NCBI RefSeq assembly: GCF_008727735.1
Contig: NZ_CP044227.1
Coordinates: 1,178,001-1,242,000, forward strand
DNA length: 64,000 nt
Origin: Flintibacter sp. KGMB00164
Lineage (GTDB): Bacteria > Bacillota > Clostridia > Oscillospirales > Oscillospiraceae
Direction of reading: 5' to 3'
The notes below the pieces were generated by a model. The model saw nothing but the letters and a program-made list of their open reading frames with translations, was not told where the DNA came from and searched no databases. Position 1 is the first letter of the stretch, and every line of letters begins with the position of its first letter. The position numbers were made by a program, and so were the translations under genes. Shown piece by piece: positions 4,956 to 64,000 of this stretch.

Positions 4956-4966
4956 ATCAATACCTC

Positions 4967-5470: not shown

Positions 5471-5493
5471 GGAATCTCTCCTCTCGCCAGTGC

Positions 5494-6468: not shown

Positions 6469-6482
6469 ATTCTTGTTCCTCC

Positions 6483-7600: not shown

Positions 7601-7742
7601 CGTTTACTCCTGATCTATCAAATTTCTGATTTCATTGTACCATTGGTCATACAAGATAACAAATACCTATATAGAATAACTAACTATGCTTGAAACCTAT
7701 ATTTGGCCTGTGTTATCATCAAGGTAACCGGAGGTGAATGGA
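7601..7742. promoter_or_regulatory. Divergent promoter region of the LysR divergon
   Basis: This 142-base AT-rich gap separates the divergent acetyltransferase operon (-) and LysR gene (+). It holds repeated ACCTATAT motifs at about 7662-7670 and 7695-7703 that could be LysR half-sites, since LysR proteins usually bind such spaced repeats between divergent genes. Exact -35/-10 boxes are not clear to me. Confidence 0.45.
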
Positions 7743-8633
7743 ATGGAATTGAGAGTGCTGCAATACTTTCTGGCGGTGGCCCGAGAGCAGAATATTTCGG
7801 CGGCGGCCCAGTCCCTGCACTTGACCCAGCCCACCCTGTCCCGACAGCTGAAAGAGCTGGAGGAGGAGCTGGGCAAGCAGCTGATGATCCGGGGAAACCG
7901 GAAGATCGTTCTGACCCAGGATGGTATGCTGCTGCGCAAGCGGGCAGAGGAGATTCTGGAACTGGTGGACCGGACGGAAAAAGAGGTCATGTGTTCGGAG
8001 GAGACCGTCAGTGGGGATATCTACATCGGTACCGGCGAGACCGACGGGGTGCGGCAAATCGTGCGCAGTGCAAACCAGATCCAGGCGCGTTATCCGGGCA
8101 TCCACTTTCATATTGTCAGCGGCGACGCTGTGGATGTGTGTGAACGACTGGACAAGGGGCTTTTGGATTTTGGCGTTCTCCTGGGTGACATTGATAAAAT
8201 AAAGTATCACTATATGGAACTGCCCATGAAGGACACCTGGGGAGTCCTCATGCGGCGGGACAGTCCTCTGGCATCCCAGGACACCGTTTCCCCACAGGAT
8301 CTTTGGGACAAGCCGCTAATCCTCTCCCGGCAGGTGGACAACAAAAGCGGACTGTACCGCTGGCTGCGGAAGGAACCTTCCGAGCTGCACACCGCAGCGA
8401 CCTATAACCTGATCTACAACGCCTCTTTGATGGTGGACGAGGGGATGGGCTACGCCTTTACGCTGGACAAGCTGGTGAACACAACCGGCAGCAGCCTGTG
8501 TTTTCGGCCGCTTGAGCCGGAATTGAAGCTGGGCATGTATCTGGTGTGGAAAAAGTCTTGGATCTTTTCCCGGGCGGCTGAGCTGTTTTTGGAGGAGCTG
8601 AGAAAGCAGCTGGAACCCGCACAAGGCCAATAG
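7743..8633 (+). CDS. LysR-family transcriptional regulator, 296 aa
   Basis: The N-terminus MELRVLQYFLAVAREQNISAAAQSLHLTQPTLSRQLKELEEELGKQLMIR is a clear LysR winged helix, followed by a substrate-binding-type effector domain (about 90-290, including LDFGVLLG and the Asp/Gly-rich hinge). ATG 7743 fits GGAGGTG at 7730-7736; a GTG at 7734 would overlap that site. It is divergent from the operon at 7600-4206, the normal arrangement for a LysR regulator and its target, so it likely senses a substrate of the hydrolase/CMD-cupin/flavodoxin enzymes. Confidence 0.92.
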   Translation: MELRVLQYFLAVAREQNISAAAQSLHLTQPTLSRQLKELEEELGKQLMIRGNRKIVLTQDGMLLRKRAEEILELVDRTEKEVMCSEETVSGDIYIGTGETDGVRQIVRSANQIQARYPGIHFHIVSGDAVDVCERLDKGLLDFGVLLGDIDKIKYHYMELPMKDTWGVLMRRDSPLASQDTVSPQDLWDKPLILSRQVDNKSGLYRWLRKEPSELHTAATYNLIYNASLMVDEGMGYAFTLDKLVNTTGSSLCFRPLEPELKLGMYLVWKKSWIFSRAAELFLEELRKQLEPAQGQ

Positions 8634-8893: not shown

Positions 8894-10555
8894 ATGAATA
8901 AGTTAAAGCGCGCCGCCCGTATCGAGGAGATCACCAGAGACCTTGCTAGCCAATTCAGCGTATTGGAGACTCCCAACGAGGTCGCCATGGCCGAAAAGGT
9001 CTACCGTATTTTTTCTCAAATGCCCTATTTCCAGGCCCATCCGGAAAATCTGAGCTATGTTCCGGTCAAAGATGATCCCTGGAACCGGAAAAGCGTGATG
9101 GCCATTGTGCGCGGCGAGAAAAAGCCCAGCCCCCGCACCGTGGTTATGATCGGACACATTGATACCGTGGGCGTCTCTGACTACGGTCCGCTGGCCGCCT
9201 ACGCCAACCAGCCCGACGTTTTGATGGAAAAATTCCGGGATATCGAGCTGCCCGAGGAGGTACGCCGGGATCTGGAGTCGGGAGATTATCTGTTTGGGCG
9301 CGGCGTCTTTGATATGAAATCCGGCGACGCTATCATCATTGCCCTTCTGGAAGAGATCAGCCAGTCTGTTGAGGAGTTTGAAGGCAACCTCATCTACGGT
9401 GCGGTCTGTGACGAGGAAGGTAACTCCGGCGGCATGCTGAACCTGGTTCCCAAGCTGGCCAAGATGCAGGAAGAGGAACACCTGGAATATCTGGCTCTGC
9501 TGGACACCGATTACATGACCTCGGAATTCCCCGGGGATGAAAATAAGTACGTATACGTAGGTACCGTGGGCAAGCTGATGCCGACCTTCTATGTGGTAGG
9601 CAAGGAAACCCACGTAGGCGAGTCTTTCAAGGGACTGGACCCCAACCAGATCACGGCCCAGATCATCTCCCGGGTCAACCTGAATCCGGAATTCTGTGAT
9701 GTGGCCGAGGGCGAGGTCACACTGCCTCCCATTACCCTGCGTCAGCGGGATATGAAGCCGGAGTATTCCTGCCAGATCGCAAAGTCGGCGGTGCTGTTCT
9801 TCAACTATGCCACCCACTGCAGTACGCCCGACCAGGTGCTGGAACGCATGGTGGGCGTGGCCCAGGAGTGTTTCCAGCAGGTGATCGATACCCTCAACCA
9901 GCACTACCGGACCTTCTGCAATATGTCCCGGCGTCCCTATGTGCGTCTGCCCTGGAAGGCGCGGGTCATGACCTATCAGGAGCTGTACACCGCAGTCAAG
10001 GCGGAACTGGGCAGCGCGCTGGATGAGATGGTCCGCGAGAAGTCGGAGGCCCTGCTGGCCCGGCAGGATATCGATACCCGGGTGCGGGCCAACATGCTGG
10101 TGGAGTACGTCCATGGGCTCTGGAGCGACAAGGATCCCATCGTGATCGTCTACCTCACGCCGCCTTATTACCCCCACGTCTATGTGGAGGGCAAGAGTGA
10201 GAAGGATAAAGCTCTGCTGGCCGCGGTGGATAAGGCAGTCACTTCTACCCAGACCGATTATAAGCTGGTCTACAAGAAGTTCTTCCCCTACATCTCCGAC
10301 CTCAGCTACGGAGCGGCGCCCAAGGACCCGGAGATTATCCGGGCGCTCAAGCGTAACACGCCGGGCTTCGGTATCTTCTACGATCTGCCTCTGAAGGAGA
10401 TGCAGGCTTTGGACCTTCCCGTTTTGGATATTGGTCCCTTCGGTAAGGATGCACATAAGTTTACTGAGCGCATTGAAAAGCATTATACCTTTGAGGTGGC
10501 TCCTGAACTGGTCTATAAAACGGTTATGAACCTGCTCCATGACGATCCTCAGTAA
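8894..10555 (+). CDS. M20-family peptidase, RocB-like, 553 aa
   Basis: Metal-site motifs of the M20 family are present: VVMIGHIDTVG (H88, D90), GVFDMKSGDA (D140) and VCDEEGNSGG (E174/E175). The long insertions and overall length of about 550 match the RocB arginine-utilisation subgroup rather than PepT or ArgE. RocB's precise reaction is poorly known. ATG 8894 follows AAAGGGG; an in-frame GTG at 8876 has no better site. A TATGAT box lies about 45 bases upstream. Followed by a strong terminator, so monocistronic. It is part of an apparent peptide/amino-acid-use neighbourhood with the genes to 14968. Confidence 0.9.
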   Translation: MNKLKRAARIEEITRDLASQFSVLETPNEVAMAEKVYRIFSQMPYFQAHPENLSYVPVKDDPWNRKSVMAIVRGEKKPSPRTVVMIGHIDTVGVSDYGPLAAYANQPDVLMEKFRDIELPEEVRRDLESGDYLFGRGVFDMKSGDAIIIALLEEISQSVEEFEGNLIYGAVCDEEGNSGGMLNLVPKLAKMQEEEHLEYLALLDTDYMTSEFPGDENKYVYVGTVGKLMPTFYVVGKETHVGESFKGLDPNQITAQIISRVNLNPEFCDVAEGEVTLPPITLRQRDMKPEYSCQIAKSAVLFFNYATHCSTPDQVLERMVGVAQECFQQVIDTLNQHYRTFCNMSRRPYVRLPWKARVMTYQELYTAVKAELGSALDEMVREKSEALLARQDIDTRVRANMLVEYVHGLWSDKDPIVIVYLTPPYYPHVYVEGKSEKDKALLAAVDKAVTSTQTDYKLVYKKFFPYISDLSYGAAPKDPEIIRALKRNTPGFGIFYDLPLKEMQALDLPVLDIGPFGKDAHKFTERIEKHYTFEVAPELVYKTVMNLLHDDPQ

Positions 10556-36008: not shown

Positions 36009-36036
36009 AAAATTCCCACTGGCCGGTGGGAATTTT
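36009..36036 (-). terminator. Hairpin at the end of tetR
   Basis: AAAATTCCCAC (36009-36019) pairs with GTGGGAATTTT (36026-36036). It overlaps the tetR stop region and reads ATTTTAT after the stem on the minus strand, so it probably reduces read-through from tetR into the membrane-protein genes. Confidence 0.65.
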
Positions 36037-36592
36037 AATAGAGAGTCCTGCGGACAATCTCCAGTACAGCGGTTGGATCATAATCCTGCCGCAGTAAAGC
36101 TGACAGCATTAGGGAAAACAGAAGATCTGCAAATTTTTCCGCCGTAAATTGTTCTGTGAAGGCATCTGGCCGCACTTTGGTGTCCTGCTGTAAAACGGAG
36201 TGCAATCCCTCCAAAATGTGCTGCCAGGTCTGCTGCATCTTCCGTCTCCCGTCCGATTTGTCTTCCCCCATAAAGCCCAGGGAGTGGAGGGTAAAGAATC
36301 CGGGATATTGTTTGCAGCCATATTCCATTCGTTCGTACAGCCAGGTAATGCAGGCCTGGGTGTCCTGAAACACAGCTCCATCCTTCGGGCGGTGGAAGAT
36401 CTCACACCAGACGCTTTCCACGGTGGCGCCAACCAGGGCAGACTTGGAGTCAAAGTAGTTGTAAATGGAACCAACCGATACTCCGCAGGCCGCCGCCACT
36501 GAACGAATATTGACGGCCGACCAGCCCTCTCGCTGGATCAGTTCCCGGCTGGTTTTTAAGATATCCTCTTTTGATGTGACAACGGTATTCAT
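36035..36592 (-). CDS. TetR/AcrR-family transcriptional regulator, 185 aa
   Basis: N-terminal helix-turn-helix is clear: ILKTSRELIQREGWSAVNIRSVAAACGVSVGSIYNYFDSKSALVGATVESVW (residues about 11-60, with the GSIYNYFxSK recognition helix). The ligand-binding C-terminal part is variable. Two identical operator copies, one at its own promoter and one before the membrane-protein pair, suggest that it represses both. Confidence 0.94.
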   Translation of the reverse strand: MNTVVTSKEDILKTSRELIQREGWSAVNIRSVAAACGVSVGSIYNYFDSKSALVGATVESVWCEIFHRPKDGAVFQDTQACITWLYERMEYGCKQYPGFFTLHSLGFMGEDKSDGRRKMQQTWQHILEGLHSVLQQDTKVRPDAFTEQFTAEKFADLLFSLMLSALLRQDYDPTAVLEIVRRTLY

Positions 36593-38660: not shown

Positions 38661-39767
38661 TTAGAATGGTCCCAGCTTGCCGCTCTGGATGCGGCGCTTC
38701 AGGTCAAGCACCTTTTCCTCGATTTGGGTCATGACAGCGAGAAATTCTTTATCTTCCTTGCCGCTGGGATCATCCAGGCCCCAATCCTCCCGATGGGAAC
38801 AGGGGAACGTGGGACACTGGACATTGCAGCCCATGGTGACGACGATATCTACCGGCGGGAGGTCGGAGAGCAGTTTATTGTGCTGGGTCCGTTCCATATC
38901 GATGCCGTGTACCTGTTTCATCAGACGTACCGCATCGGGGTTGATCCGGGAGCCGGGTTCAGTGCCGGCAGAGAAGCTATCAAACACATCGCCGGCCAGT
39001 TTTTTGCCTAGCGCCTGGGCCATCTGGCTGCGGCAGGAGTTATGAACGCAGAGAAAAGCCACCTTGGGCTTTTTGAGGTTGGCAGCAGAGAAGGGGCAGC
39101 GCTTGCCGATGCACTGGTTGTTTTGACTGCTGTAAGAGCAGACGGGGAGAGTCCGTTCCATCTCCACCCCAAGATGCTCCCGGGTAAAGTCGATGGCGGC
39201 CAGGATGGACAGAAAGGAATCCCGTTTGCAGCACCGGGGGCCGCCCGCCTTCCCGATGCTGTCCAGTGCCCGGGCGGTCATCTGGTTGCTCAGTCCCCAA
39301 GGTTCCTGGGCCAGTGGTGTGGACTGCGTGGCAACGGCCAAAAACTGTCCCGCACTGATCCCAGCCCCGCAGGCACCCCAAAAGCCGCAGGCTCCGCCGG
39401 GAACTTCTTTGCCCCGGCTGTACATCTCGCGAAGGGCGGCTTCCAAATCCAAGCTGCCTCCGGCATTTTTATAGGCGGTGAGCAGAGCGGCTCCCACCAT
39501 GACATGGTGTTCCGGGCCGTGCATATGGCAGAAGGGGAGATCCATCATCCGTCGGACAATGGCCACAGGGTCTTTGGAGGTCTCAGAGAGACACAGGCCA
39601 AAGATGCTGTCCATGCCCTGGGTATGGCAGTCATTGCACACATAGTGTCCTTTTACGCAGCGCGTTTTGCTGGGTTCTTTTTTATGGCAGATAGCGCACT
39701 CCATGATCTCATCCTGGATCAGATATTCCAGGGGCGCCCGACAAATCAAACATTCTTCCCGGTTCAA
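38661..39767 (-). CDS. DUF5714 domain fused to thioredoxin-coupled arsenate reductase, 368 aa
   Basis: Residues about 1-228 match DUF5714, a Cys-rich domain with CLIC, CAIC, C37, CNDC and FCHMH motifs (metal-binding look) and GGACGFWGACGAGISAG. Residues about 233-368 are a complete LMW-phosphatase-type arsenate reductase: catalytic loop C240-VHNSC-R246 and the reductant cysteines in GCNVQCPTFPC (C314, C318, C323). TTG 39767 overlaps the previous stop as TTGA with GGGAGG upstream; ATG 39785 is an alternative. It is roughly 65 percent identical to the ArsC at 55393 by eye. The fusion is unusual and its use in arsenic resistance is inferred. Confidence 0.85.
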   Translation of the reverse strand: MNREECLICRAPLEYLIQDEIMECAICHKKEPSKTRCVKGHYVCNDCHTQGMDSIFGLCLSETSKDPVAIVRRMMDLPFCHMHGPEHHVMVGAALLTAYKNAGGSLDLEAALREMYSRGKEVPGGACGFWGACGAGISAGQFLAVATQSTPLAQEPWGLSNQMTARALDSIGKAGGPRCCKRDSFLSILAAIDFTREHLGVEMERTLPVCSYSSQNNQCIGKRCPFSAANLKKPKVAFLCVHNSCRSQMAQALGKKLAGDVFDSFSAGTEPGSRINPDAVRLMKQVHGIDMERTQHNKLLSDLPPVDIVVTMGCNVQCPTFPCSHREDWGLDDPSGKEDKEFLAVMTQIEEKVLDLKRRIQSGKLGPF

Positions 39768-40468
39768 ACCTCCGTCTCCTCCCATTTTTGCAGCGCAGCA
39801 TGTTGTTCCGGTGTATGAAACCAGTGTTCTCCACCTTCCAACACAGTGAGCTTAGCATTGTGTTGATGAGTATACTCTTCCACAGTATGACGGGGAGTCA
39901 TATTGTCCCCACTTCCGTAGAGAATGCAGATAGGGCAGTCCCAATGGTGGACTGGATGCTCCCGTACCCAGCATAGATACGTCCAGGATAGGGTTTGGCC
40001 AAAAGAGGTGGCGATTTCACCCTGCTCCTTTAGTTGTTCCTCCGACACTCCGGCCCAGCCCATCATAGTCAAAATCAAGCGTTCCATGTCCACAATAGGG
40101 GAGACAAGTAGAGCGCGACGGGGTGTGTCCGAGGCCAGCATAGCAAAATAAGCTCCGATGCTGTTGGTACGGAGAGAGACCGTTTTCCAGTGCTGCTTTG
40201 ACCAATACAGCGCAGCTTGAATGTCTGGTACTGCTGTCCATGGGGTAAATACCTCATCTCGATTCTGACGTTCTCCATGACCAGGCAAATCAATGGACAG
40301 TACCTGGTACCCCTTGGGACAGGCTATCAGAGCAAAGGCTGCAGCTTCTTCTTTATGCCCCATTTGTCCGTGGAGAAATAGATATCCTCGCTGCGCAGGT
40401 TCCCCATATAAAATCGCGGGAATCATACCAATTTGAATGTGTTGGGTTTTCATTGTTTTGCCTTTCAT
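39764..40468 (-). CDS. Alpha/beta hydrolase, 234 aa
   Basis: Core motifs: YLFLHGQMGHKEEA (oxyanion loop), LSIDLPGHGERQ, the nucleophile elbow SIGAYFAML (LRTNSIGAY, Ser in N-S-I-G), CPICILYGSGDNMTP (acid) and GGEHWFHTPEQ (catalytic His). Cytosolic. Substrate unknown; the closest look is to serine esterases. ATG 40468 overlaps the upstream stop as ATGA; ATG 40453 with AAAGG is an alternative. It overlaps the DUF5714-ArsC start, all in one operon. Confidence 0.85.
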   Translation of the reverse strand: MKGKTMKTQHIQIGMIPAILYGEPAQRGYLFLHGQMGHKEEAAAFALIACPKGYQVLSIDLPGHGERQNRDEVFTPWTAVPDIQAALYWSKQHWKTVSLRTNSIGAYFAMLASDTPRRALLVSPIVDMERLILTMMGWAGVSEEQLKEQGEIATSFGQTLSWTYLCWVREHPVHHWDCPICILYGSGDNMTPRHTVEEYTHQHNAKLTVLEGGEHWFHTPEQHAALQKWEETEV

Positions 40469-53989: not shown

Positions 53990-54022
53990 ATCATTCAATG
54001 TGTGCAAAGCGAGGTTTCCGGT

Positions 54023-55024
54023 ATGGGTATATGGCAATTCGTTCAAGACGAGCTTTTGGGAATGAAATGGCTCAATCGGGTCATTGGAAATGGCTTGTCT
54101 GCGTTAGGTTTGGACATAAACGGGAGATTGGGCGGCAGCGTTCAGTTTTTTCTCTATGATGTGATCAAGATCACGATTCTCTTATGTTTTTTGATTTTTG
54201 TGATTTCTTATATTCAAAGCTACTTTCCTCCTGAGCGCAGTAAGAAAATTTTGGGCCATTTTCATGGAATTCGTGCAAATATCATCTCGGCTTTACTGGG
54301 GACAGTGACACCGTTTTGTTCTTGTTCCTCTATCCCGCTGTTTATCGGGTTTACCAGTGCAGGACTTCCTTTGGGTGTGACCTTTTCTTTTTTGATTTCC
54401 TCTCCCATGGTGGATTTGGGCAGTTTGGTACTGCTGATGAGCATCTTTGGAGCGAAGGTCGCGGTGATCTATGTGCTGGTTGGATTGGTGATTGCTGTGG
54501 CAGGGGGAACCATCATTGAAAAGCTGCACATGGAAAGGTACGTGGAGAGCTTCATCCTGTCCGCTGGGAGTGTCGATATTGAGTCACCTTCTTTGACCAA
54601 AGCAGAACGTATAAAGTATGCAGCAGAACAAGTTTCTGCCACATTTAAGAAAGTGTTCCCGTATATTTTAGTGGGTGTGGGAATCGGAGCGGTGATCCAC
54701 AACTGGATACCGGAGAGCTGGATCGAAGCTGTCCTGGGCAGCAACAACCCCTTTGGAGTGTTTTTGGCAACCCTGGTCGGGATTCCTATGTACGCGGATA
54801 TTTTTGGTACCATCCCGGTGGCGGAGGCACTGCTTGCAAAGGGCGCACAGCTTGGTACGATCCTGGCCTTCATGATGGCGGTTACAACACTGAGCCTGCC
54901 GTCCATGATTATGCTGCGCAAGGCGATTAAACCGAAGCTGCTGGCTTTGTTTATTGGAGTTTGTACCGGTGGGATTATCCTGGTAGGTTACTGGTTTAAT
55001 ATATTCCAATTTGTTTTTATTTGA
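54023..55024 (+). CDS. ArsP/UPF0718-type permease, 333 aa
   Basis: Polytopic membrane protein with the family motif TPFCSCSSIPLFIGFTSAGLPLGVTFSFLISSPMVDLGSLVLL and the second-half equivalent NNPFGVFLATLVGIPMYADIFGTIPVAEALLAKGAQLGTILAFMMA. This permease family includes ArsP, which exports trivalent organoarsenicals, and other metal/metalloid permeases. ATG 54023 follows GCGAGG. Together with arsR, the thiol protein and arsC it forms an ars operon; no ArsB or Acr3 is present in the window. Confidence 0.88.
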   Translation: MGIWQFVQDELLGMKWLNRVIGNGLSALGLDINGRLGGSVQFFLYDVIKITILLCFLIFVISYIQSYFPPERSKKILGHFHGIRANIISALLGTVTPFCSCSSIPLFIGFTSAGLPLGVTFSFLISSPMVDLGSLVLLMSIFGAKVAVIYVLVGLVIAVAGGTIIEKLHMERYVESFILSAGSVDIESPSLTKAERIKYAAEQVSATFKKVFPYILVGVGIGAVIHNWIPESWIEAVLGSNNPFGVFLATLVGIPMYADIFGTIPVAEALLAKGAQLGTILAFMMAVTTLSLPSMIMLRKAIKPKLLALFIGVCTGGIILVGYWFNIFQFVFI

Positions 55025-55041
55025 ATTAGGAGGTATCAGTT

Positions 55042-55389
55042 ATGGGATTTTTCAGCAGAAACAAGAAAACAGAGGCGGCTTCCTGCTGCTGCGGCGGCAG
55101 CTGTACGCCTGAGGCAATGGCTCAGGCGGAGGCAGGTAAAGCCACGGTCGGGGTCAAAGTGCTTGGTTCCGGCTGTGCCAAATGCAATGCTTTGGAGCAG
55201 GCAGTCCATGAGGCCCTGGCTGAGCTGGGTATGGAGACTGCCATTGACCACGTAACAGATTTTGCACAAATTGCGGCCTATGGTGTGATGACCACTCCGG
55301 CACTGGTGGTGGATGGCAAGGTCGTGTCCTACGGCAAGGTTTTGAAAAAGGATGAGGCCAAGGCTCTGATCCAGAAGGTTCGGGGGTAA
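55042..55389 (+). CDS. Small thioredoxin-fold thiol protein with CCCGGSC tail, 115 aa
   Basis: Residues about 35-115 are a small thioredoxin/glutaredoxin-like fold of the MTH895/TM0996 type: VKVLGSGCAKCNALEQAVHEALAEL, with the active pair C45-x-x-C48, then DFAQIAAYGVMTTPALVVDGKVVSYG. The N-terminus carries an extra Cys patch, SCCCGGSC (about 15-21). It may reduce ArsC or bind As(III). ATG 55042 follows AGGAGGTATC. It is 17 bases after the permease gene. Confidence 0.9.
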   Translation: MGFFSRNKKTEAASCCCGGSCTPEAMAQAEAGKATVGVKVLGSGCAKCNALEQAVHEALAELGMETAIDHVTDFAQIAAYGVMTTPALVVDGKVVSYGKVLKKDEAKALIQKVRG

Positions 55390-55392
55390 CCT

Positions 55393-55803
55393 ATGCATCA
55401 AAAACCGAAAGTGGCCTTTGTATGTGTTCACAACTCCTGCCGCAGTCAGATCGCAGAAGCGCTTGGCAAGCAGCTGGCCGCCGATGTGTTTGACAGTTAT
55501 TCTGCGGGTACGGAGACGAAACCACAAATCAATCAGGACGCAGTCCGGCTGATGAAGCAGCTCTATGGTGTGGATATGGAGCAGAACCAATATAGTAAGC
55601 TGCTATCTGAAATTCCCCCGGTTGATATTGTGATCACCATGGGGTGCAATGTATCCTGTCCATCCCTGCCCTGTCGATACCGGGAAGATTGGGGATTGGA
55701 TGACCCAACCGGAGAGAAGGATGACGTCTTTTTGGAAGTGATCCACAGTATTGAGGAGAAGGTTTGTGAACTAAAACGCAGAATAGATAACGGCCTGCTG
55801 TAA
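55393..55803 (+). CDS. arsC: Arsenate reductase, thioredoxin-coupled (LMW-PTP fold), 136 aa
   Basis: Catalytic loop C11-VHNSC-R17 in VAFVCVHNSCRSQIAEALGK, DP-type acid later (GLDDPTGEKDD), and the reductant cysteines in TMGCNVSCPSLPC. Reduces As(V) to As(III) for export. About 65 percent identical by eye to the ArsC half of the fusion at 38661. The start is 3 bases after the thiol protein stop; the two are probably translationally coupled. Last gene before the terminator at 55917. Confidence 0.95.
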   Translation: MHQKPKVAFVCVHNSCRSQIAEALGKQLAADVFDSYSAGTETKPQINQDAVRLMKQLYGVDMEQNQYSKLLSEIPPVDIVITMGCNVSCPSLPCRYREDWGLDDPTGEKDDVFLEVIHSIEEKVCELKRRIDNGLL

Positions 55804-57161: not shown

Positions 57162-57701
57162 TCAGGACTCTTTCCTGGTTATGAGTTCCAGGCGATCCAG
57201 CAAGATATCTTCCTGATTTTTTACAACTCCGGCCAAGGGAGCACCAATGATATTTCCTTCACGATCTACAATATAAGTTGTTGGAAATCCTGCGATTTCA
57301 CAGATGAAATTCTTATAGAACTCACTTTCTGGATCAGGAATAATATTGGTATATGTTACACCTTTTTCTGTCAGAATTTTTTCTGCTTCTGCATGCATCT
57401 CCTCGGAGTCACCAGCACTGGCAGCTACAGCGACCAAGTTGATGTTTTTTTTCTTAAATTCTTGATAATATTTTTCCAAATCCGGCATTTCTGCAATACA
57501 GCTTCCGCAGCCGTTAGTCCAGAAATTGATGATCGTGGCATCATAGTCGGCGAATAGATCATTGTTGACGGTGTTTCCGTCAAAGTCCACACCTTCGAAT
57601 GCTGGAAAGGGTTTCTTGGATGCTTCAATATTGCTGCTTCCACAGGCGGCGAGTGAAAAAATACAAGCTGATGCCAACAACAGACTAAGTAGTTTCTTCA
57701 T
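57162..57701 (-). CDS. TlpA-like thiol-disulfide lipoprotein, 179 aa
   Basis: A signal peptide with lipobox SLAAC puts the lipidated Cys at residue 20. The rest is a thioredoxin-fold domain with the active site FWTNGCGSCIAEMPDLEKYYQEF (C65, C68), the TlpA-type KGVTYTNIIPDPESEFYKN and GFPTTYIVDREGNIIGAPLAGVV (cis-Pro region). It acts on the outer face of the membrane in thiol-disulfide exchange. AAGGAG precedes ATG 57701, inside the end of the Fe-S gene (17-base overlap). Last gene of a four-gene operon. Confidence 0.93.
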   Translation of the reverse strand: MKKLLSLLLASACIFSLAACGSSNIEASKKPFPAFEGVDFDGNTVNNDLFADYDATIINFWTNGCGSCIAEMPDLEKYYQEFKKKNINLVAVAASAGDSEEMHAEAEKILTEKGVTYTNIIPDPESEFYKNFICEIAGFPTTYIVDREGNIIGAPLAGVVKNQEDILLDRLELITRKES

Positions 57702-58551
57702 GTTGATTTACTCCTTTTGAAAATGGAATGGTTTTAGAAATTGCACCATAGGGGCAGGTTCGAAGACAATCTCCACAGCGGATACATTCTGTATGGTTTG
57801 GTGTTTTATAAACTTCGACATCCATTTTACATGCTTTAGCACATGCTCCACATGCAGTGCATTTATTCCGATCAATGTGAAAGCGATACAACGATACTTG
57901 ATTGAACAGAGCATAGAACGCACCAAGCGGGCAGAACCATTTGCAAAATGGGCGATAAAAAAAGACAGATAATATGACGATGCCAATGAGGATACAGCTT
58001 TTCCAGGTGAACAGGAAACCGAGAGAAGCGCGAATTGCACCATTGACGATAGACAGAGGAATGGCGCCTTCCAATACGCCTGCGGGGCAGAACCATTTGC
58101 AGAACCAAGGATCGCCCATTCCGACTTCGTTGACCATTGTCATGGGGAGTACAATTACAAACAGCAGCAGAATCATGTATTTCCCGTAAGTCAGGAAATA
58201 CAGTTTTTTGGTACTGAATTTTTTGGTAGGGATCTTGTGCAGAAGCTCTTGAAACCAACCAAAGGGGCAAAGAAAACCGCAAATCACCCGTCCTAACAGC
58301 ACACCAAAAAGAATGATGATTCCAACAACATAGTAGGAAAAGCAAAATTTGGATGAGCCGATAACTGCCTGCAAAGAGCCTATTGGGCAAGAGCCAATTG
58401 CTCCGGGACAGGAATAGCAGTTTAATCCGGGAACACAGAGTCCTTTCAAATTTCCTTTGAATATTTTCCCTGTAAAAAATCCGGTTAGATGGGCATTCGT
58501 CAGCAAAGTGGAGAGTGCCTGGATCTTCCAGCGATTTTTATTTTCAGCCAA
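57685..58551 (-). CDS. NapH/MauN-like membrane Fe-S protein, 288 aa
   Basis: Several hydrophobic segments alternate with Cys motifs: CVPGLNCYSCPGAIGSCPIGS, VICGFLCPFGWFQELLHKIPTKKF, CKWFCPAGVLEGA and CKWFCPLGAFYALF, followed by two C-terminal [4Fe-4S] motifs, CTACGACAKACKM and CIRCGDCLRTCPYGA. This matches the NapH/CcoG/MauN-like membrane ferredoxins that move electrons from the cytosol toward the membrane. A start TTG at 58551 follows TGGAG; an in-frame ATG lies far upstream without a site. It overlaps its neighbours on both sides. Confidence 0.88.
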   Translation of the reverse strand: MAENKNRWKIQALSTLLTNAHLTGFFTGKIFKGNLKGLCVPGLNCYSCPGAIGSCPIGSLQAVIGSSKFCFSYYVVGIIILFGVLLGRVICGFLCPFGWFQELLHKIPTKKFSTKKLYFLTYGKYMILLLFVIVLPMTMVNEVGMGDPWFCKWFCPAGVLEGAIPLSIVNGAIRASLGFLFTWKSCILIGIVILSVFFYRPFCKWFCPLGAFYALFNQVSLYRFHIDRNKCTACGACAKACKMDVEVYKTPNHTECIRCGDCLRTCPYGAISKTIPFSKGVNQHEETT

Positions 58552-58678
58552 TACCAACACACTCCAGGCAAAGATTTGTCCCCTTTTCCAGTACCGTAGA
58601 TGCTTCACCCCGCACCGCACCAAAAACAATCAAGCATATTGCCGCGGCTGCAAGGATTGCCGGAAGTTTATTTCTCAT
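58544..58678 (-). CDS. CD1871A-type CXXC micro-protein, 44 aa
   Basis: A 44-residue product MRNKLPAILAAAAICLIVFG, then AVRGEASTVLEKGTNLCLECVGIG: one membrane helix and a C-terminal C37-L-E-C40 near the end, the pattern of the CD1871A-type clostridial micro-proteins. ATG 58678 follows GAGGG with 8-base spacing. It overlaps the redoxin gene by 11 bases and the Fe-S gene by 8. It would put a redox-active Cys pair beside the Fe-S protein. Confidence 0.85.
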   Translation of the reverse strand: MRNKLPAILAAAAICLIVFGAVRGEASTVLEKGTNLCLECVGIG

Positions 58679-59288
58679 TTGCAATTCCCTCTGCGGCATC
58701 CAGGAGTCCCTCAGCACTGCAATCGCTATTCCAGGCTGAGTAAATACCCCCGTCCTTTGTAAACACAGAAACAACGTTATCTTCAATCAAGTCCTTGTAA
58801 AAATCAAAAGATTTCTCCATTTCTTCGTTATAAACGATAACAGGAAATTTCAGCTCCGGCAGTGACGCACGAGCTGTATCAACGTCATGGTCGGTAATGA
58901 TACCAAGCACGGGAACGCCTAATTGCTTCATTTGCTCCGAGATCTTACTGATTTCTTTGAGTGTATCTATACTGCTGTCCACGGTGCTGTTAAAGAAAAC
59001 CAGGCACATAGTTCCTTCAATGAGTTGGGAAGAGGCTGGGGTACCGTCCAGATAAGTGGTGTCAAAGGGGTCAAGAAGATAGATTTTGGACTTTGCTTCC
59101 ACTGGTTCAAAATGCTTCTCGATCCATGCATCATCAATCCAACCTTTGGATTTGGCATCTTCTACTGTGATTGTCCCCTTTTCCAGGGCAGACATAATTT
59201 CCTCCTCTGAGGGACTAGAACTGCATCCCGCCATGGCGACCACAAGTAATCCAGCCATTAGGAGGGAACAGCGCTTTTTGTGCTGCAT
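58668..59288 (-). CDS. Redoxin-like lipoprotein, 206 aa
   Basis: Lipobox AMAGC gives a lipidated Cys at residue 22. The mature part has an acidic linker, a short helical repeat (EEEIMSALEKGTITVEDAKSKGWIDDAWIEKHFEPVEAKSK) and a thioredoxin-like fold (GTMCLVFFNSTVDSSIDTLKEISKISEQMKQLGVPVLGIITDHDVDTARASLPELKFPVIVYN). A CxxC is not present at the usual place. First gene of the four-gene redox operon; ATG 59288 is preceded by an AAAGTGAGGA-type site. Its role outside the membrane is unknown. Confidence 0.85.
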   Translation of the reverse strand: MQHKKRCSLLMAGLLVVAMAGCSSSPSEEEIMSALEKGTITVEDAKSKGWIDDAWIEKHFEPVEAKSKIYLLDPFDTTYLDGTPASSQLIEGTMCLVFFNSTVDSSIDTLKEISKISEQMKQLGVPVLGIITDHDVDTARASLPELKFPVIVYNEEMEKSFDFYKDLIEDNVVSVFTKDGGIYSAWNSDCSAEGLLDAAEGIANEK

Positions 59289-59347
59289 AGCGAATCCTCA
59301 CTTTCCTATGTTTGGGGACAGTCTATCAGACCAAGGTTAAAATCCGT

Positions 59348-59371
59348 GTTAAGCAAAGAACACACCTTAAC
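59348..59371. promoter_or_regulatory. Inverted repeat between redox operon and two-component genes
   Basis: GTTAAG (59348-59353) and CTTAAC (59366-59371), with a 12-base spacer, lie in the divergent region between 59288 and 59420. It could be the site of the response regulator. A TATACT box at 59393-59398 fits a promoter for the plus-strand genes, though no -35 at 17 bases is clear. Confidence 0.4.
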
Positions 59372-59419
59372 ACAAACTTTATCTTGTTATGCTATACTGC
59401 TTACAGCAGGAGGTGTACC

Positions 59420-60100
59420 ATGCGAATTTTAATTGTGGAAGATGAGGCTGAGCTTTGCGACACCATTGCGGAAGGCCTGGAATTGGATGGCTATGCGGTG
59501 GACCGCTGTTATGATGGTAAGGTTGCCCACGAACTGCTCGCGGTGGAAACCTATGATTTGGCTGTACTGGATTTAAACCTGCCGGGAATGGATGGGATGG
59601 ATGTGCTGCGGGAGGTTCGCAAAGTCAATCAGGAGCTCAAAGTGTTGATTTTGTCTGCTCGAGGCAGTGTGTCGGATAAGGTGCAGGGGTTGGACAATGG
59701 AGCCAATGACTATTTGGCAAAGCCCTTTGCGTTTGAAGAACTGGAAGCACGTATCCGAAGTTTGCTTCGTCGAAGCTTTGTGCAGGAAAATACCGTGTTG
59801 GTTTGGAATGCAATTTCCTTGGATACCGCCAAGCGGATTGCTTGTGTAAACGGAGAGCAGATTCCCTTAACCAAAAAAGAACTGTCAATTCTAGAGTATT
59901 TTATGCTACACCCGACAAAGGTGATTAGCCAGGAAGAACTGATGGAACATATCTGGAATATGGAGATTGACAGTTTCAGTAATGCGGTTCGGGTTCATAT
60001 TGCTACGCTGCGGAAAAAGCTGAAGCAGGCATTAGCCTATGATCCGATTGTAACCCGGATTGGACAGGGGTATTGTCTTAGACGGGAGGATACGATGTGA
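59420..60100 (+). CDS. OmpR-family response regulator, 226 aa
   Basis: Receiver domain with the acidic pocket (LIVEDEAE), phosphorylated D51 in LAVLDLNLPGMDGMDV and the Lys in AKPFAFEELEARI; then a PhoB-type winged helix (LTKKELSILEYFMLHPTKVISQEELMEHIWNMEIDSFSNAVRVHIATLRKKL, ending RIGQGYCLRR). ATG 59420 follows CAGGAGGTG. It overlaps the histidine kinase start by 4 bases (GTGA). It is divergent from the redox operon and precedes the lipoprotein and ABC genes it probably controls. Confidence 0.95.
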   Translation: MRILIVEDEAELCDTIAEGLELDGYAVDRCYDGKVAHELLAVETYDLAVLDLNLPGMDGMDVLREVRKVNQELKVLILSARGSVSDKVQGLDNGANDYLAKPFAFEELEARIRSLLRRSFVQENTVLVWNAISLDTAKRIACVNGEQIPLTKKELSILEYFMLHPTKVISQEELMEHIWNMEIDSFSNAVRVHIATLRKKLKQALAYDPIVTRIGQGYCLRREDTM

Positions 60101-61215
60101 AAAAGCTCTCCTTACAGATGCGCTTGACCGGTATGAGCGTTTTTTTGCTTTCTATCTGCTGCATTGGATTAACGTTCATATTAAATTTCAATGCCAACAA
60201 CATGGCAGATGTGATTGAAGCTACTGTGGTATTGCCCGCAGTTGAAGTAGGGAGTGAAGAATCATTTTCTGCTTTGTCGACCGGCGGTGCTGAACTGTCT
60301 CCTTCTGTGGAATCCCAACAAGCAAGGACGGATTTTTTCCAGACAAGCATTGCCTATATGCTGCTTGTGATTGCCGCCGGAGGCGGTATCACCTGGTTTA
60401 TGGTCGGCCGCGCACTAAAGCCGCTAAAAGCCTTGAGCAGCCGGATGAAATCCTGTACAGCCAATAATTTATCCCAGCAGATTTCGGTCCCCCAAAGCCG
60501 GGATGAGGTTGCTGAATTGACGGAGTCTTTCAATCAGATGTCGAGTAAATTGGACCAGGCATTTGCCATGCAGCAGCGCTTTGCTCAAAGTGCAGCCCAT
60601 GAATTGCGCACTCCGCTGACTGTTTTAAGAACGAAAGTAGACGTATTTAGAAAGCATGCGGAACATGATCAGCAGGACTATGACAAGCTGATTGAGGGCG
60701 TATTGGTACAGGCCAGGCGTTTATCTGATCTGGTACAAGAGCTTTTGGAGCTGACAAACTTGGATGGGGTGACAGAGCGGGAACGCGTCCCTGTGTATGA
60801 GCTTCTAGAGCAAGTAACGAAGGACCTTTCTCCTCTTGCCGAGACAAAGAAAGTAAATGTTTTTCTCAAAGGAAGCGAAGAGTATACGGTCGGGAACCGG
60901 TTGTTGTTAGGTAGAGTGTTTTTTAATCTGGTGGAAAATGCAATCAAGTATAACCGCCCTAGTGGCAGTGTATGCATTACACTATCACCAGGACCGGTCG
61001 TGAGCATATCAGATACAGGGATAGGCATTCCAGAAGAAGCATTGGAATTGATTTTTGAACCGTTCTATCGGGTAGACAAGTCGCGTTCACGTCAAATGGG
61101 AGGTGCTGGACTTGGACTTGCTACAGCTAAGGCAATCGTCGAACAACATGGAGGGACCATTGAAGTAAGTTTAATTCCGGAAGGTGGAAGCTGCTTTACC
61201 GTCCATTTACCCTAA
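60097..61215 (+). CDS. Membrane histidine kinase, 372 aa
   Basis: Two membrane helices (about 13-33 and 85-104) flank a short extracytoplasmic loop of about 50 residues; then come HAMP (RALKPLKALSSRMKSC...LTESFNQMSSKLDQAF), the dimerisation and phosphorylation site (SAAHELRTPLTVLRTKVD, H168) and the ATPase domain (VFFNLVENAIKYN, DTGIGIPEEAL, GGAGLGLATAK). GTG 60097 overlaps the response regulator stop. The short sensor loop is unlike big-ligand sensors, so it may sense membrane state or a partner protein (inference). Confidence 0.94.
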   Translation: MKKLSLQMRLTGMSVFLLSICCIGLTFILNFNANNMADVIEATVVLPAVEVGSEESFSALSTGGAELSPSVESQQARTDFFQTSIAYMLLVIAAGGGITWFMVGRALKPLKALSSRMKSCTANNLSQQISVPQSRDEVAELTESFNQMSSKLDQAFAMQQRFAQSAAHELRTPLTVLRTKVDVFRKHAEHDQQDYDKLIEGVLVQARRLSDLVQELLELTNLDGVTERERVPVYELLEQVTKDLSPLAETKKVNVFLKGSEEYTVGNRLLLGRVFFNLVENAIKYNRPSGSVCITLSPGPVVSISDTGIGIPEEALELIFEPFYRVDKSRSRQMGGAGLGLATAKAIVEQHGGTIEVSLIPEGGSCFTVHLP

Positions 61216-61218
61216 TTT

Positions 61219-61258
61219 AAAAGGCCCGGATCATTTCTCAAGATGATCCGGGCCTTTT
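61219..61258 (+). terminator. Terminator after the histidine kinase gene
   Basis: AAAAGGCCCGGATCAT (61219-61234) pairs with ATGATCCGGGCCTTTT (61243-61258). It separates the two-component genes from the lipoprotein/ABC unit. Confidence 0.9.
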
Positions 61259-61329
61259 ACTGTGCTTAACATGGATTTTATGTCAGTTTTGATAGACTGC
61301 ACTTATCCTAAAGAATCGAGGTAGCCTAT

Positions 61330-62025
61330 ATGAAACGATTTCCTGCATTTGCAGCAGTATTCCTGACCGTTCTTTCTCTTGCAGGATGCGGAAATTTGTC
61401 TGCGCCGCAGAATGAGGACATTTGTCCTGGCAAGCAGGTGGGAGCGGAAGGTGTTCCTGTAATGAAGGCGGAAGGTTTTGATGAAACAGAGGATATGAGT
61501 TTTACCACAGCAGATACAAAGGGAAACTCTGTCACAAACGAAATTTTTAATGGTAGCGAGCGAGGGGTCTGGCTGCTGTTTTGGGAGACTGACAATGAGA
61601 ACAGTAGGGAGGCCTTGGCACAGTTGGAAAGATTGCTTCCTGATGCAAAAGAAAACGGATATAAGATGATCGGTGTGGTGATGGATGGTGAAAAGCATCC
61701 GGAAACGGCTGCGAAAATGACGGCCAATCTGCACTTTGACAATCTCATATGGAATGATGAGATGGCGCAGCGATATGAGGGAATCATGGACTTCTTTGAT
61801 GGAACGCACTATGAGAAAAACAAAGAGGATTATGCCCAGATGAATCCCAAGCCCCATCCTGGCGATCCGATTTCCACGCGCACAAACAGCCGTGGCCAGC
61901 TTCAAACTTCCTGTACACTCGTTTCTTTGACAGATGAGCAGATCCTTTCCCGGATGCAGGAAATTGACAGCAACATGACTTATGATGAATTGATGGAAGA
62001 GACCAACGAGTTTTTGAAAAAATAA
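61330..62025 (+). CDS. Redoxin-like lipoprotein without CXXC, 231 aa
   Basis: Lipobox SLAGC gives the lipidated Cys at residue 20. The mature domain has a thioredoxin-like pattern (GVWLLFWETDNENSREALAQLERLLPDAKENGYKMIGVVMDGEKHPETAAKMTANL), but no CxxC at the active-site position, and a long acidic C-terminal part. It resembles the lipoprotein at 58668 and the TlpA-like protein at 57162 in size and layout, so it may be a divergent paralogue. It lies 11 bases before the ABC gene. Confidence 0.8.
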   Translation: MKRFPAFAAVFLTVLSLAGCGNLSAPQNEDICPGKQVGAEGVPVMKAEGFDETEDMSFTTADTKGNSVTNEIFNGSERGVWLLFWETDNENSREALAQLERLLPDAKENGYKMIGVVMDGEKHPETAAKMTANLHFDNLIWNDEMAQRYEGIMDFFDGTHYEKNKEDYAQMNPKPHPGDPISTRTNSRGQLQTSCTLVSLTDEQILSRMQEIDSNMTYDELMEETNEFLKK

Positions 62026-62036
62026 GGAGACAGTAG

Positions 62037-63980
62037 ATGTTTGAAGTTAAGCACGTATCAAAACAGTTTCATGGCGAATATGCACTGCGGGATGTTTCGC
62101 TTTCCATTGGCAAGGGACTGAACTTTCTGGTGGGGGCGTCGGGCAGCGGAAAAACCACTCTGCTTAAGATTTTGACCGGCATGGAGCAAGAATATGATGG
62201 ACAGGCGGTTTATTGTGGTCAGGATTTAAAAAAGTTGACTGCACAAGAAAAAAGTTGCTGTTATAACCAGCAGTTTGGATTAATCTGGCAAGATTTTAAT
62301 CTTCTGGAGGATCATACTGTGCTGGAAAATGTGATGCTTCCCCTATATCTGAAAAAACAGCCGGATAAGCTGATAGCTCGAAAGGTTTTGCGTGAACTTC
62401 GTATAGAAGAGCTGGCGAATCAGAAAGTCAGCAAATTATCTGGCGGCCAAAAGCAGCGTGTAGCCATAGCACGGGAACTGGTCAAAAGCCCCAACGTTAT
62501 TTTGGCTGACGAACCAACCAGTGCGTTGGATGAAAAATCGGCCAAAGTCATTATGGATCTTCTGCGGACAATCGCAAAAAAGAGAACGGTCATTGTGGTG
62601 ACTCATGATACTTCTCTGATCCGTCCAAGTGACAAGGTGTATGAACTGGATAAAGGAGAATTGATTTCAGCCCCTGAGACACCGGATGCTGCTTCCGGAG
62701 CTGTAAAGCTTGGTAAATTCCATCGCCTTTCCCCGAAAAGTGTATGTATGTTATCTTGGAGCGGGATAAAAAGTAACGTGGGACGTTCATTATCATCTGT
62801 TCTTGCGTTGATGGTTTCCGCAACGCTGCTGTTGGTGAGTGTAAGCGGAGTAATCACAGACAGTGGACAAGAAGCATTTCAAAAATTGTATGATACTTAT
62901 GGCGAAAGCATCCTGGATGTCAGTGTAGTGGGGAGCTTTACCAGTGCAGGCGGTACAGACGGACAAAGTAGTGACGAACCATCTGCTGATGTAGATCAGA
63001 ACATTGATGGTCTTTATGATCGCTATCTACATGACAACCGAGTCTCTCACATTGTTTTTACGCAGGCATACCAAGATATCTCAGTGACCGTGGATGGCCA
63101 AACGTATAAAGTGGAGAGCAGCAGTTCCGTTCCCCATGCCGATAAGTTGGTGGCGGGTACTATGCCGATGGGAAGCGGAAAAGAAATTGTGATTCCCGAG
63201 AGCTTTGCTGCGCGGTTGGGACTTTCAGCAGAAGAATCGCTAGGGAAAAGTGTGAAGTTTTCCGGCAGCATTTACAACTGGGATAGCGGAGAACCAGTCT
63301 CCATGCCGGTATCGATCCAAGCAAAAATTGTAGGCGTGATGGATACCACAGTGCGATATGATTATGGAAATCAAATTATGTCTTACACGGTGGATGATGC
63401 GTTCTTCTTCAGTAAAAGTGCTTTGGATGATATGCGTACCCAAGCGAAAATCACCAGCGGTGAAAGCAATTTTGTGATCCGTGCTAAAACACCTGCGGAT
63501 ATGATTGCGATTAAAGATGAACTGAATGCGGAAGGCATTGTTCCGCTGGGGCGTTTTGAGCTGGTGGAGGATATGGTACGACTCAATCAGCAGACGACTC
63601 AGCAGTCTGGTTCGGCCGTGGTAGTAATTAGTGTGTTGGCTATTGTAGTAGACTTGGCGGTTGCACTGGTGACGGCTATGAGTCGACGCAGAGAATATGC
63701 CATCTTTCAGGTCAGTGGATATAGAAAAACTCATCTTATGGGTATCACAAGCGCGGAATATCTCATGCTTGGAATCGGTTCAATCGCAATATTCCTGTGT
63801 GCCTCTCCGCTGTTAAGTTTGGGAACGAATGCATTTTGGAATGTAAGCCTAATGAATGGCAGAATGCTTGGCGTCGGTGCTGTACTGATCCTTTTGTCCG
63901 CGCTGCTTGGCTGGCTGCTTACAGGGGGAGTCGCTGCGGCGGTGAAGGCTTCCACTATTTTGAAAATAGGAGAGCACTAA
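62037..63980 (+). CDS. MacB-like ABC transporter, ATPase fused to permease, 647 aa
   Basis: The N-terminal about 220 residues are an ABC ATPase: Walker A VGASGSGKTT, signature LSGGQKQR and Walker B ILADEPTSALDE. A membrane helix follows (about 255-280), then a large extracytoplasmic domain (about 280-510) and an FtsX-type membrane part near the C-terminus with three helices (about 525-550, 575-600, 620-640). This matches MacB-type mechanotransmission transporters, which act on lipoproteins, antibiotics or cell-wall signals. AAGGAG precedes ATG 62037. Its substrate is unknown; the lipoprotein before it may be a partner. Confidence 0.92.
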   Translation: MFEVKHVSKQFHGEYALRDVSLSIGKGLNFLVGASGSGKTTLLKILTGMEQEYDGQAVYCGQDLKKLTAQEKSCCYNQQFGLIWQDFNLLEDHTVLENVMLPLYLKKQPDKLIARKVLRELRIEELANQKVSKLSGGQKQRVAIARELVKSPNVILADEPTSALDEKSAKVIMDLLRTIAKKRTVIVVTHDTSLIRPSDKVYELDKGELISAPETPDAASGAVKLGKFHRLSPKSVCMLSWSGIKSNVGRSLSSVLALMVSATLLLVSVSGVITDSGQEAFQKLYDTYGESILDVSVVGSFTSAGGTDGQSSDEPSADVDQNIDGLYDRYLHDNRVSHIVFTQAYQDISVTVDGQTYKVESSSSVPHADKLVAGTMPMGSGKEIVIPESFAARLGLSAEESLGKSVKFSGSIYNWDSGEPVSMPVSIQAKIVGVMDTTVRYDYGNQIMSYTVDDAFFFSKSALDDMRTQAKITSGESNFVIRAKTPADMIAIKDELNAEGIVPLGRFELVEDMVRLNQQTTQQSGSAVVVISVLAIVVDLAVALVTAMSRRREYAIFQVSGYRKTHLMGITSAEYLMLGIGSIAIFLCASPLLSLGTNAFWNVSLMNGRMLGVGAVLILLSALLGWLLTGGVAAAVKASTILKIGEH

Positions 63981-63982
63981 GA

Positions 63983-64000
63983 ATGATTCAACTTTGCGAT
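63983..64000 (+). CDS. Start of the next gene (cut by window edge)
   Basis: ATG 63983 follows AGGAGAG and opens MIQLCD before the window ends. Its position right after the MacB-like gene fits another ABC-transporter gene, but only six residues are visible, so the product cannot be named. Confidence 0.4.

Follow-up and report, generated by a model that had tools for sequence, protein, structure and literature searches.

Two described systems come nearest to the locus reported here, and statements on them, as on the other papers cited below, refer to the accessible part of each text. In the CcdA-Etrx-MsrAB2 pathway of Streptococcus pneumoniae a membrane electron conduit feeds surface lipoproteins of thioredoxin fold (PMC3914529). 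In the second group, comprising the NapH-like and DsbD systems of PMC8238504, a NapH-like iron-sulfur (Fe-S) membrane protein acts as electron conduit. Neither, in the text accessible to us, has the combination of genes that we analysed in a 64,000-nucleotide stretch of Flintibacter sp. KGMB00164 (NZ_CP044227.1, 1,178,001-1,242,000; genome of 2.92 Mb), referred to below as the window. Here, a NapH-like Fe-S protein, a CXXC mini-protein and a TlpA-type lipoprotein are encoded together with a two-component system, two further lipoproteins (LP4 and LP7) and a pair of MacB-like ATP-binding cassette (ABC) fusion proteins (ABC1 and ABC2). A literature search over titles and abstract openings found no description of this gene set, and no paper was found for the term 'CD1871A', the family to which the mini-protein belongs.

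We consider it reasonably probable that this locus is a self-contained, horizontally moving envelope-stress regulon which couples a Fe-S-driven thiol reductase to a MacB-type transporter. An earlier interpretation made without database searches (the sequence-only reading) had listed the genes of the locus, and each of them was found. The locus is larger than it had noted, as the plus-strand unit extends past the window with ABC2.

The Fe-S, CXXC and TlpA core

The minus-strand unit consists of LP4, CXXC, Fe-S and TlpA, whose successive reading frames overlap. The Fe-S gene (57685-58560 (-), with a GTG start assigned from its relatives) encodes a NapH-like polyferredoxin membrane protein with three predicted transmembrane (TM) helices, in which two PF12801 (Fer4_5, 4.9e-21) stretches are combined with two PF00037 ferredoxin stretches. 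In an alignment of 58 sequences, window included and some of them partial, 18 cysteines are conserved; 17 show no exception, and the remaining one is found in 56 of 57 rows. The charge pattern, read with the three predicted helices, would place six of the conserved cysteines on the outer side and both ferredoxin motifs in the cytoplasm. The 44-residue CXXC protein (58544-58678 (-)) is membrane-anchored, carries a C-terminal CLECVGIG and matches NCBIfam NF040920 (CD1871A_fam, 'CD1871A family CXXC motif-containing protein') at 57 bits against a cut-off of 32. TlpA (57162-57701 (-)) is a TlpA/ResA-type lipoprotein of thioredoxin fold (Redoxin PF08534, 4.6e-15; AhpC-TSA PF00578, 5.6e-16) and, with its active site CGSC, the sole CxxC carrier among the three lipoproteins of the locus. 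It scores below the cut-offs of the NCBIfam models for ResA (52.5 versus 170) and TlpA (44.6 versus 230) and is ResA-like by sequence.

These three genes were followed through an evenly drawn set of 292 genomes of the class, each from a different species; pairing counts and statistical tests here and below ignore the relatedness of the genomes. The Fe-S protein (E <= 1e-30) was found at 52 places in 50 genomes and the CXXC family in 49 genomes (47 above the family cut-off). All 52 Fe-S neighbourhoods were retrieved, some of them cut by contig ends. A CXXC gene lies within 300 bp of the Fe-S gene in 48 of the 52 places; a TlpA relative is no farther than 1.5 kb away in 43 (scripted count). The four places without CXXC are L071, where the copy contains an in-frame TGA, L057, which meets a contig end, and L084 and L085, which are distant homologues. 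Fe-S-TlpA fusions occur at L078 and L083, the latter outside the 43. The conserved core is therefore a NapH-like Fe-S protein, a CD1871A-type CXXC protein and TlpA. At both fusion loci the TlpA domain is C-terminal on the Fe-S protein, and the CXXC domain ends a larger membrane protein. Five CD1871A copies were seen in a single genome (G532).

At seven loci (L051, L064, L068, L069, L070, L072 and L073) the tlpA frame is broken by TGA exactly at the first active-site cysteine and is followed by a conserved ATTCCTGCGTTGCAGGAAAT-type stretch. These loci probably represent a TlpA selenoprotein group; all seven genes stand beside a Fe-S/CXXC pair, and the genomes that carry them belong to one family (f23). 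At L071 a TGA stands at the first cysteine of the CXXC frame (9512-9514, V-TGA-LECIGIG), just upstream of the Fe-S gene; a second CXXC gene of this kind was found neither among 146 genomes of the L071 family nor in the 292-genome survey, the two sets being partly shared. SelA is present in all seven genomes with TGA codons versus 4 of 13 others (20 hand-picked genomes; P 0.005, uncorrected), and RNA folding downstream of the codon gave z-scores of -3.2 and -1.5 for two tlpA stretches. We read these TGA codons as selenocysteine at redox-active positions, the CXXC part from one case. Read in this way, the codons in TlpA and in one CXXC protein, together with the two Fe-S-TlpA fusions, support a membrane-crossing thiol-redox relay.

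It is unlikely that the CXXC mini-protein is instead a structural metal knuckle or a Fe-S ligand with no dithiol shuttle. CLECVGIG does fit CxxCxGxG, a pattern that we take to be akin to DnaJ-type zinc fingers, and the glycines of the mini-protein are strongly conserved. The TGA at the first cysteine codon of L071, in a genome that has SelA, indicates redox chemistry, though as a single case. A selenoproteome review (PMC13188914) includes other UxxC thioredoxin-like and TlpA-family selenoproteins, so that selenocysteine in TlpA is not new as such; its accessible text does not mention CD1871 or NF040920.

Less probable still is that the core runs in an oxidising or respiratory direction, with extracellular thiols or another donor feeding electrons into the cell or the quinol pool, as NapH-type proteins do in respiration. 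NapH/MauN (TIGR02163) is the best named relative of the Fe-S protein, and quinols and extracellular oxidoreductases are known partners of NapH-like proteins (PMC8238504). The Fe-S protein nevertheless misses the TIGR02163 cut-off (58.6 versus 213 bits), and an FMN-binding or terminal reductase domain is absent among the scanned proteins of the locus. Its partner is TlpA-type, and selenocysteine in the TlpA active site would suit a reductant.

A shared operator before three units

On the plus strand, an OmpR/PhoB-type response regulator (59420-60100 (+); Response_reg 4.4e-29, Trans_reg_C 8.5e-23) is followed by a histidine kinase (60097-61215 (+)). A terminator-like hairpin at 61218-61259 (+) (-30.9 kcal/mol and z -9.7 for 61216-61262) lies between the kinase gene and LP7, and therefore three transcription units are expected, namely LP4-CXXC-FeS-TlpA, regulator-kinase and LP7-ABC1-ABC2. 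A 17-mer shared by the regions upstream of these units was first spotted by eye and written as the pattern CTTAACAYRRAYTTTAW, which is perfect at three places, one per unit. Operator 1 (59337-59353 (-), CTTAACACGGATTTTAA, with TAGACT 11 nucleotides after it) faces LP4-CXXC-FeS-TlpA, operator 2 (59366-59382 (+), CTTAACACAAACTTTAT, with TATACT 10 nucleotides after it) faces the regulator and kinase, and operator 3 (61265-61281 (+), CTTAACATGGATTTTAT, with TAGACT 11 nucleotides after it) faces LP7-ABC1-ABC2. The first two sit in exactly the interval, 59289-59419, that the sequence-only reading had pointed to for response-regulator binding.

At up to two mismatches the window holds four operator matches versus 0.12 expected, three of the four perfect; this enrichment taken alone is circular because the pattern was built from those same three sites. 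The whole genome contains eight matches at this threshold, three of which are the perfect ones, while the reversed-pattern control gives seven. The next-best matches have two mismatches, and none with fewer exists beyond the three. Four of the five other genomic sites were examined with their frames and showed no obvious link, and the fifth is at window position 46726.

Four related loci (L087, L088, L089 and L090) each carry exactly three operators at up to one mismatch, one before each unit, and no match arose in 40 shuffles of each locus. L088 and L089 have an altered gene order, in which ABC1 is divergent from the regulator and LP4 follows 0.1 kb after the kinase; as they keep the operators despite this order, the sites have moved with their units. 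Among 49 further Fe-S loci, an operator (up to two mismatches, within 2.5 kb of Fe-S) is found in 7 of 9 loci adjacent to a two-component system versus 5 of 40 others (P 3e-4, relatedness uncorrected), and at up to one mismatch in 3 of 9 versus none of 40; L048, L049 and L061, whose two-component systems are of another subfamily, are counted among the 40. A perfect operator is also seen at L060, where two ABC exporters of another type (4874-8297) lie directly upstream of the TlpA-CXXC-FeS-regulator-kinase unit bearing it.

In 19 of 20 effector promoters the best -10-like hexamer begins 11 nucleotides past the 17-mer; for the regulator promoters the spacing is 10 nucleotides in 9 of 11, in a set from which three regulator promoters with more than five operator mismatches were excluded and into which L050 and L056 were not entered. 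All three target promoters thus have the operator near their -10-like hexamer, as OmpR/PhoB-type two-component regulons do. In addition, the operator variant CTTGAY of L091 and L124 pairs with RMH in the DNA-binding domain of the regulator, whereas the other operator-bearing loci have RVH, at a position which, as in PhoB, would be the recognition helix. Scans for consensus sigma-70 promoters and terminators returned no more than in shuffles and were not used. Uniqueness of the operator, its layout in relatives, the -10 spacing and the covariation with the regulator together make it likely that this regulator drives all three units, the transporter included. The proposal of the sequence-only reading that both halves form one system is thereby largely supported, given that each of the three units has this operator in front of it, both in the window and in L087-L090.

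Transporter, lipoproteins and spread of the locus

ABC1 (62037-63980 (+)) and ABC2, which starts at 63983-64000 (+) and runs past the window end (596 residues; genome 1241983-1243773), are each an N-terminal ATPase fused to a MacB-like permease. Walker A, signature, Walker B and H-loop are intact in both, and the MacB topology is given by four predicted helices, the first and second of which are joined by a large loop. In Pfam, ABC1 is just above the cut-off for MacB_PCD (27.5 versus 27) and below that for FtsX (20.7 versus 25.5), and ABC2 has ABC_tran and FtsX domains (FtsX 42.7); the NCBIfam MacB model stays below its cut-off (137.6 versus 966). The pair has the hallmarks of MacB-type transporters, namely an N-terminal ABC, four TM helices, a MacB/FtsX permease and the catalytic motifs. 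FtsX/MacB-type ABC genes also stand beside the core in 4 of 49 other loci, in three other architectures. L048 and L049 read core-permease-ATPase-permease followed by a regulator and kinase of another subfamily, L056 reads regulator-kinase-core-permease-ATPase, and in L042 the ABC genes are divergent from the core with one beta-propeller-like gene between. The permeases of L048, L056 and L042 were confirmed by Pfam, and that of L049 by likeness to L048.

A pattern scan for LP4 returned five loci in 84,980 species genomes. Eight LP4 loci were compared in all, comprising the window, L087-L091, L124 and L125 (the last in genome G407). Regulator-kinase, CXXC and Fe-S are present in all eight, the Fe-S frame of L124 being split. 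TlpA is present in seven, the sequence of L091 ending before it, and LP7 in three. The ABC pair is present in five; it was not seen in the available sequence of L124 and L125, and L091 is too short to tell. The expectation of a conserved co-occurrence of all seven genes is partly supported, with regulator-kinase, CXXC and Fe-S in every LP4 locus, the ABC pair in 5 of 8 and the full set with LP7 in 3 of 8.

The core is also found without this ABC pair, being far wider in its distribution (the 52 places in 50 of 292 genomes given above). The ABC half was not found elsewhere, with 1 of 292 class genomes matching at E <= 1e-90 where at most four candidates were scored per genome. It is conceivable on these grounds that a TlpA redox cassette and a two-component/ABC cassette for detoxification are independent modules that just happen to be neighbours, as most core loci are without this ABC pair and L124 and L125 show a two-component system, LP4 and core with no ABC pair in the available sequence. 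We hold this to be very unlikely, since five loci, with two gene orders between them, have the same operator before every one of the three units, the ABC pair was seen only together with the core under the limited scoring just given, and L042, L048, L049 and L056 place other MacB-type ABC genes beside the core.

LP4 (58668-59288 (-)) and LP7 (61330-62025 (+)) are lipoproteins whose models adopt a ResA/TlpA-like fold (mean pLDDT, the predicted local distance difference test, 83 for LP4 and 78 for LP7). Their best PDB matches are ResA-type, at query-normalised TM-scores of 0.43-0.53, and the models also resemble Sco structures. The active-site columns are free of cysteine in 29 aligned LP4 and 20 aligned LP7 sequences, and LP7 is without any CxxC. 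Catalytic cysteines being absent in both, the label 'redoxin-like', which the two had been given, is misleading. Cysteines are kept at other positions, Cys95 of LP4, outside the active site, in 26 of 29 sequences and C32 and C195 of LP7 in 20 of 20 and 19 of 20. No LP4 or LP7 relative (E <= 1e-3) was found in the other 51 Fe-S neighbourhoods of the survey. LP7 has 48 relatives in the protein database, its occurrence in genomes having been read from the LP4 and Fe-S neighbourhoods; viral contigs were also searched, and 28 pattern matches included no true LP7 relative. We also hold it to be very unlikely that the module serves in maturation, for instance by assisting the insertion of haem or a metal as ResA does, with the ABC pair exporting a ligand. 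The resemblance of LP4 and LP7 to ResA and Sco structures and the ResA-like sequence of TlpA speak for this reading, but the two lipoproteins are without the active-site cysteines that ResA and Sco need, and genes for cytochromes or metalloproteins were not noticed to recur next to the core (24 of 49 loci, by eye).

In the 292-genome draw, the core is absent from both genomes of the same family and from all eleven of the same order, and a wider search of the family found LP4 with the core in 3 of 200 genomes, window included; this sparse presence fits horizontal gain without proving it. In a tree of the Fe-S protein (59 rows, midpoint root) all LP4 loci, six loci with two-component systems and four others form a group of 18 (100/100). 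The ABC-bearing form is one Fe-S group (97/84) comprising the window, an uncultured Oscillospiraceae, a Bacillota metagenome-assembled genome, Robinsoniella and Clostridium sp. CF012, and the eight-gene form thus spans Oscillospiraceae, Lachnospiraceae (Robinsoniella) and Clostridiaceae. In G407 the module (L125, 7.9-12.7 kb) lies between homologues of the window genes 36035-36592 and 38661-39785 (homology by eye), and the counterpart of this site in the window, 36.6-38.6 kb, holds other genes and no module. The placement in G407 and the Fe-S tree fit a movement of the locus as a unit.

At L089 the eight-gene module lies between repeats about 12-13 kb apart and 89-92% identical. Plasmid records gave one match to the Fe-S protein at 1e-25 and none to ABC1 at 1e-40. 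When the right flank was compared with that of five relatives in search of an empty site, only the last, malic-enzyme-like gene matched (5 of 5), and therefore no insertion junction could be read. A conjugative element like CTn5 of C. difficile was considered and is not claimed, no conjugation genes having been noticed by eye among the frames around the locus; the accessible text on CTn5 (PMC3158075) does not discuss these genes. A GNAT gene stands 3' of ABC2, and no relative of it was found in L087-L091. Next to the locus, at window positions 54002-55803, an arsenate-reductase-like phosphatase is encoded along with a permease and a small thioredoxin-like protein; 38661-39785 encodes another phosphatase of this kind, there joined to a further domain (all named by eye).

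Proposed mechanism and known systems

It seems plausible to hypothesize the following course. An inducing agent, our best guess being a membrane-active peptide or a thiol-reactive compound, would be perceived by the kinase, and the phosphorylated regulator would activate its own unit, the four-gene reducing arm and the transporter operon. Cytoplasmic electrons would cross the membrane along the Fe-S clusters of the NapH-like protein and, from its outer face, be handed by the CXXC mini-protein to TlpA at its CGSC site; TlpA may then reduce disulfides or oxidised thiols outside the membrane. In this scheme the Fe-S wire would take the role that DsbD and CcdA fill by thiol relay. ABC1 and ABC2 would pair up as a heterodimeric transporter of the MacB (mechanotransmission) type, by which an agent acting on the envelope is removed or detached, and the cysteine-less thioredoxin-fold proteins LP4 and LP7 could serve as accessory binding or adaptor subunits.

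The kinase has two predicted TM helices and a short outer loop without cysteine, and Cys21 and Cys22 lie in its first helix (TM1). Cys22 is conserved in 14 of the 16 kinases encoded next to Fe-S versus 1 of 7 related kinases elsewhere (P 0.002, uncorrected; the seven were taken from the best full-length relatives and judged by eye). The sequence-only reading had suggested that the two-component system may sense the redox state or fold of envelope lipoproteins; the TM1 cysteine is a candidate redox sensor, and no more is claimed for it.

Several points weigh against the regulon proposed here. The gene set, operators, conservation, fusions and TGA codons are read from the sequence; the action of the regulator, electron flow, its reducing direction, the electron donor, and the function and substrate of the pump are what we infer from them. 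The Fe-S core often occurs without this kind of two-component system and without these ABC genes, and it is therefore not dependent on them. Two loci linked to two-component systems, L050 and L056, have no operator at up to two mismatches. The TM1 cysteine is also present in the kinase of L157, which is not beside Fe-S, and is absent from 2 of the 16 that are. The RNA fold after the CXXC TGA of L071 (z -0.28) is no better than shuffles. Finally, PF02683, the DsbD TM domain, is absent from the Pfam matches of the eight locus proteins, but the same genome has a DsbD/CcdA-like gene (its one match, at 1913857-1914477), and the Fe-S wire is accordingly no simple substitute for DsbD/CcdA.

A functional replacement of DsbD was tried as an explanation and set aside. 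The DsbD TM domain is rarer in genomes with Fe-S (19 of 50) than in those without (135 of 242; Fisher P 0.03), and without two distant Fe-S homologues the figures are 17 of 48 and 137 of 244 (P 0.01). This depletion is a hint only, because the test is uncorrected for relatedness and the Flintibacter genome carries both.

To our knowledge, how thiol chemistry outside the cell is powered in strict anaerobes is poorly understood. If the proposed reading is right, it assigns to CD1871A, a family of unknown function, a role that can be tested on named residues and partners. The three promoters of the regulon offer a simple handle for finding the inducing signal. Should the reducing arm and the pump indeed answer the same insult, they would represent a new kind of joint redox-efflux defence.

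Two-component systems beside ABC genes are a known pairing. The transporter resembles MacB/LolD/BceA-type transporters in its MacB topology, an N-terminal ATPase with four TM helices, and its sequence matches to solved structures include MacB (5lil). It differs from them in having two different fused subunits which, as predicted from the operators, are co-regulated with a thiol-redox arm. With CcdA-Etrx-MsrAB2 the locus shares a conduit to surface lipoproteins of thioredoxin fold, and Etrx structures are among the fold matches of LP4 and LP7. There, however, the conduit is CcdA, a thiol relay fed by thioredoxin (PMC3914529), whereas here it is a polyferredoxin with a CXXC mini-protein; the locus moreover has its own two-component system and ABC pair, and MsrAB is absent from it. 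The systems of PMC8238504 are defined by FMN-binding/ApbE partners, which were not found among the locus proteins, and the NapH-like protein is here paired with TlpA, a term that occurs 0 times in that main text. The DsbD systems of the same paper combine a thioredoxin-like protein with a small protein ending in a C-terminal CXC (DUF4266), which is a fair analogue of the CXXC mini-protein. A plasmid of Peptoclostridium acidaminophilum carries, by annotation names, CD1871A (NF040920) with an adjacent '4Fe-4S binding protein' and a TlpA gene 1.6 kb away; a two-component system, LP4, LP7 and the ABC pair are not annotated there within 12.8 kb. In C. difficile, overexpression of the '4Fe-4S binding protein' CD17960 restored tolerance to peroxide, metronidazole and vancomycin in an xtr mutant (PMC13260099, 2026). 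CD17960 is, by annotation name, a possible relative of the Fe-S protein of the locus, and its regulator is an XRE protein, unlike the two-component pair here.

Set beside DsbD and CcdA, the core may tentatively be regarded as a third class of transmembrane thiol reduction, a suggestion which we hold less firmly than that of the regulon itself. In such a system a Fe-S wire would pass electrons to a tiny, membrane-anchored dithiol or selenothiol carrier of the CD1871A family and on to TlpA. It would be present in roughly every sixth genome of the class Clostridia, and the present clade would have it within a mobile stress regulon with three operators, through which the reducing arm and a heterodimeric pump of the MacB type are switched on at the same time.

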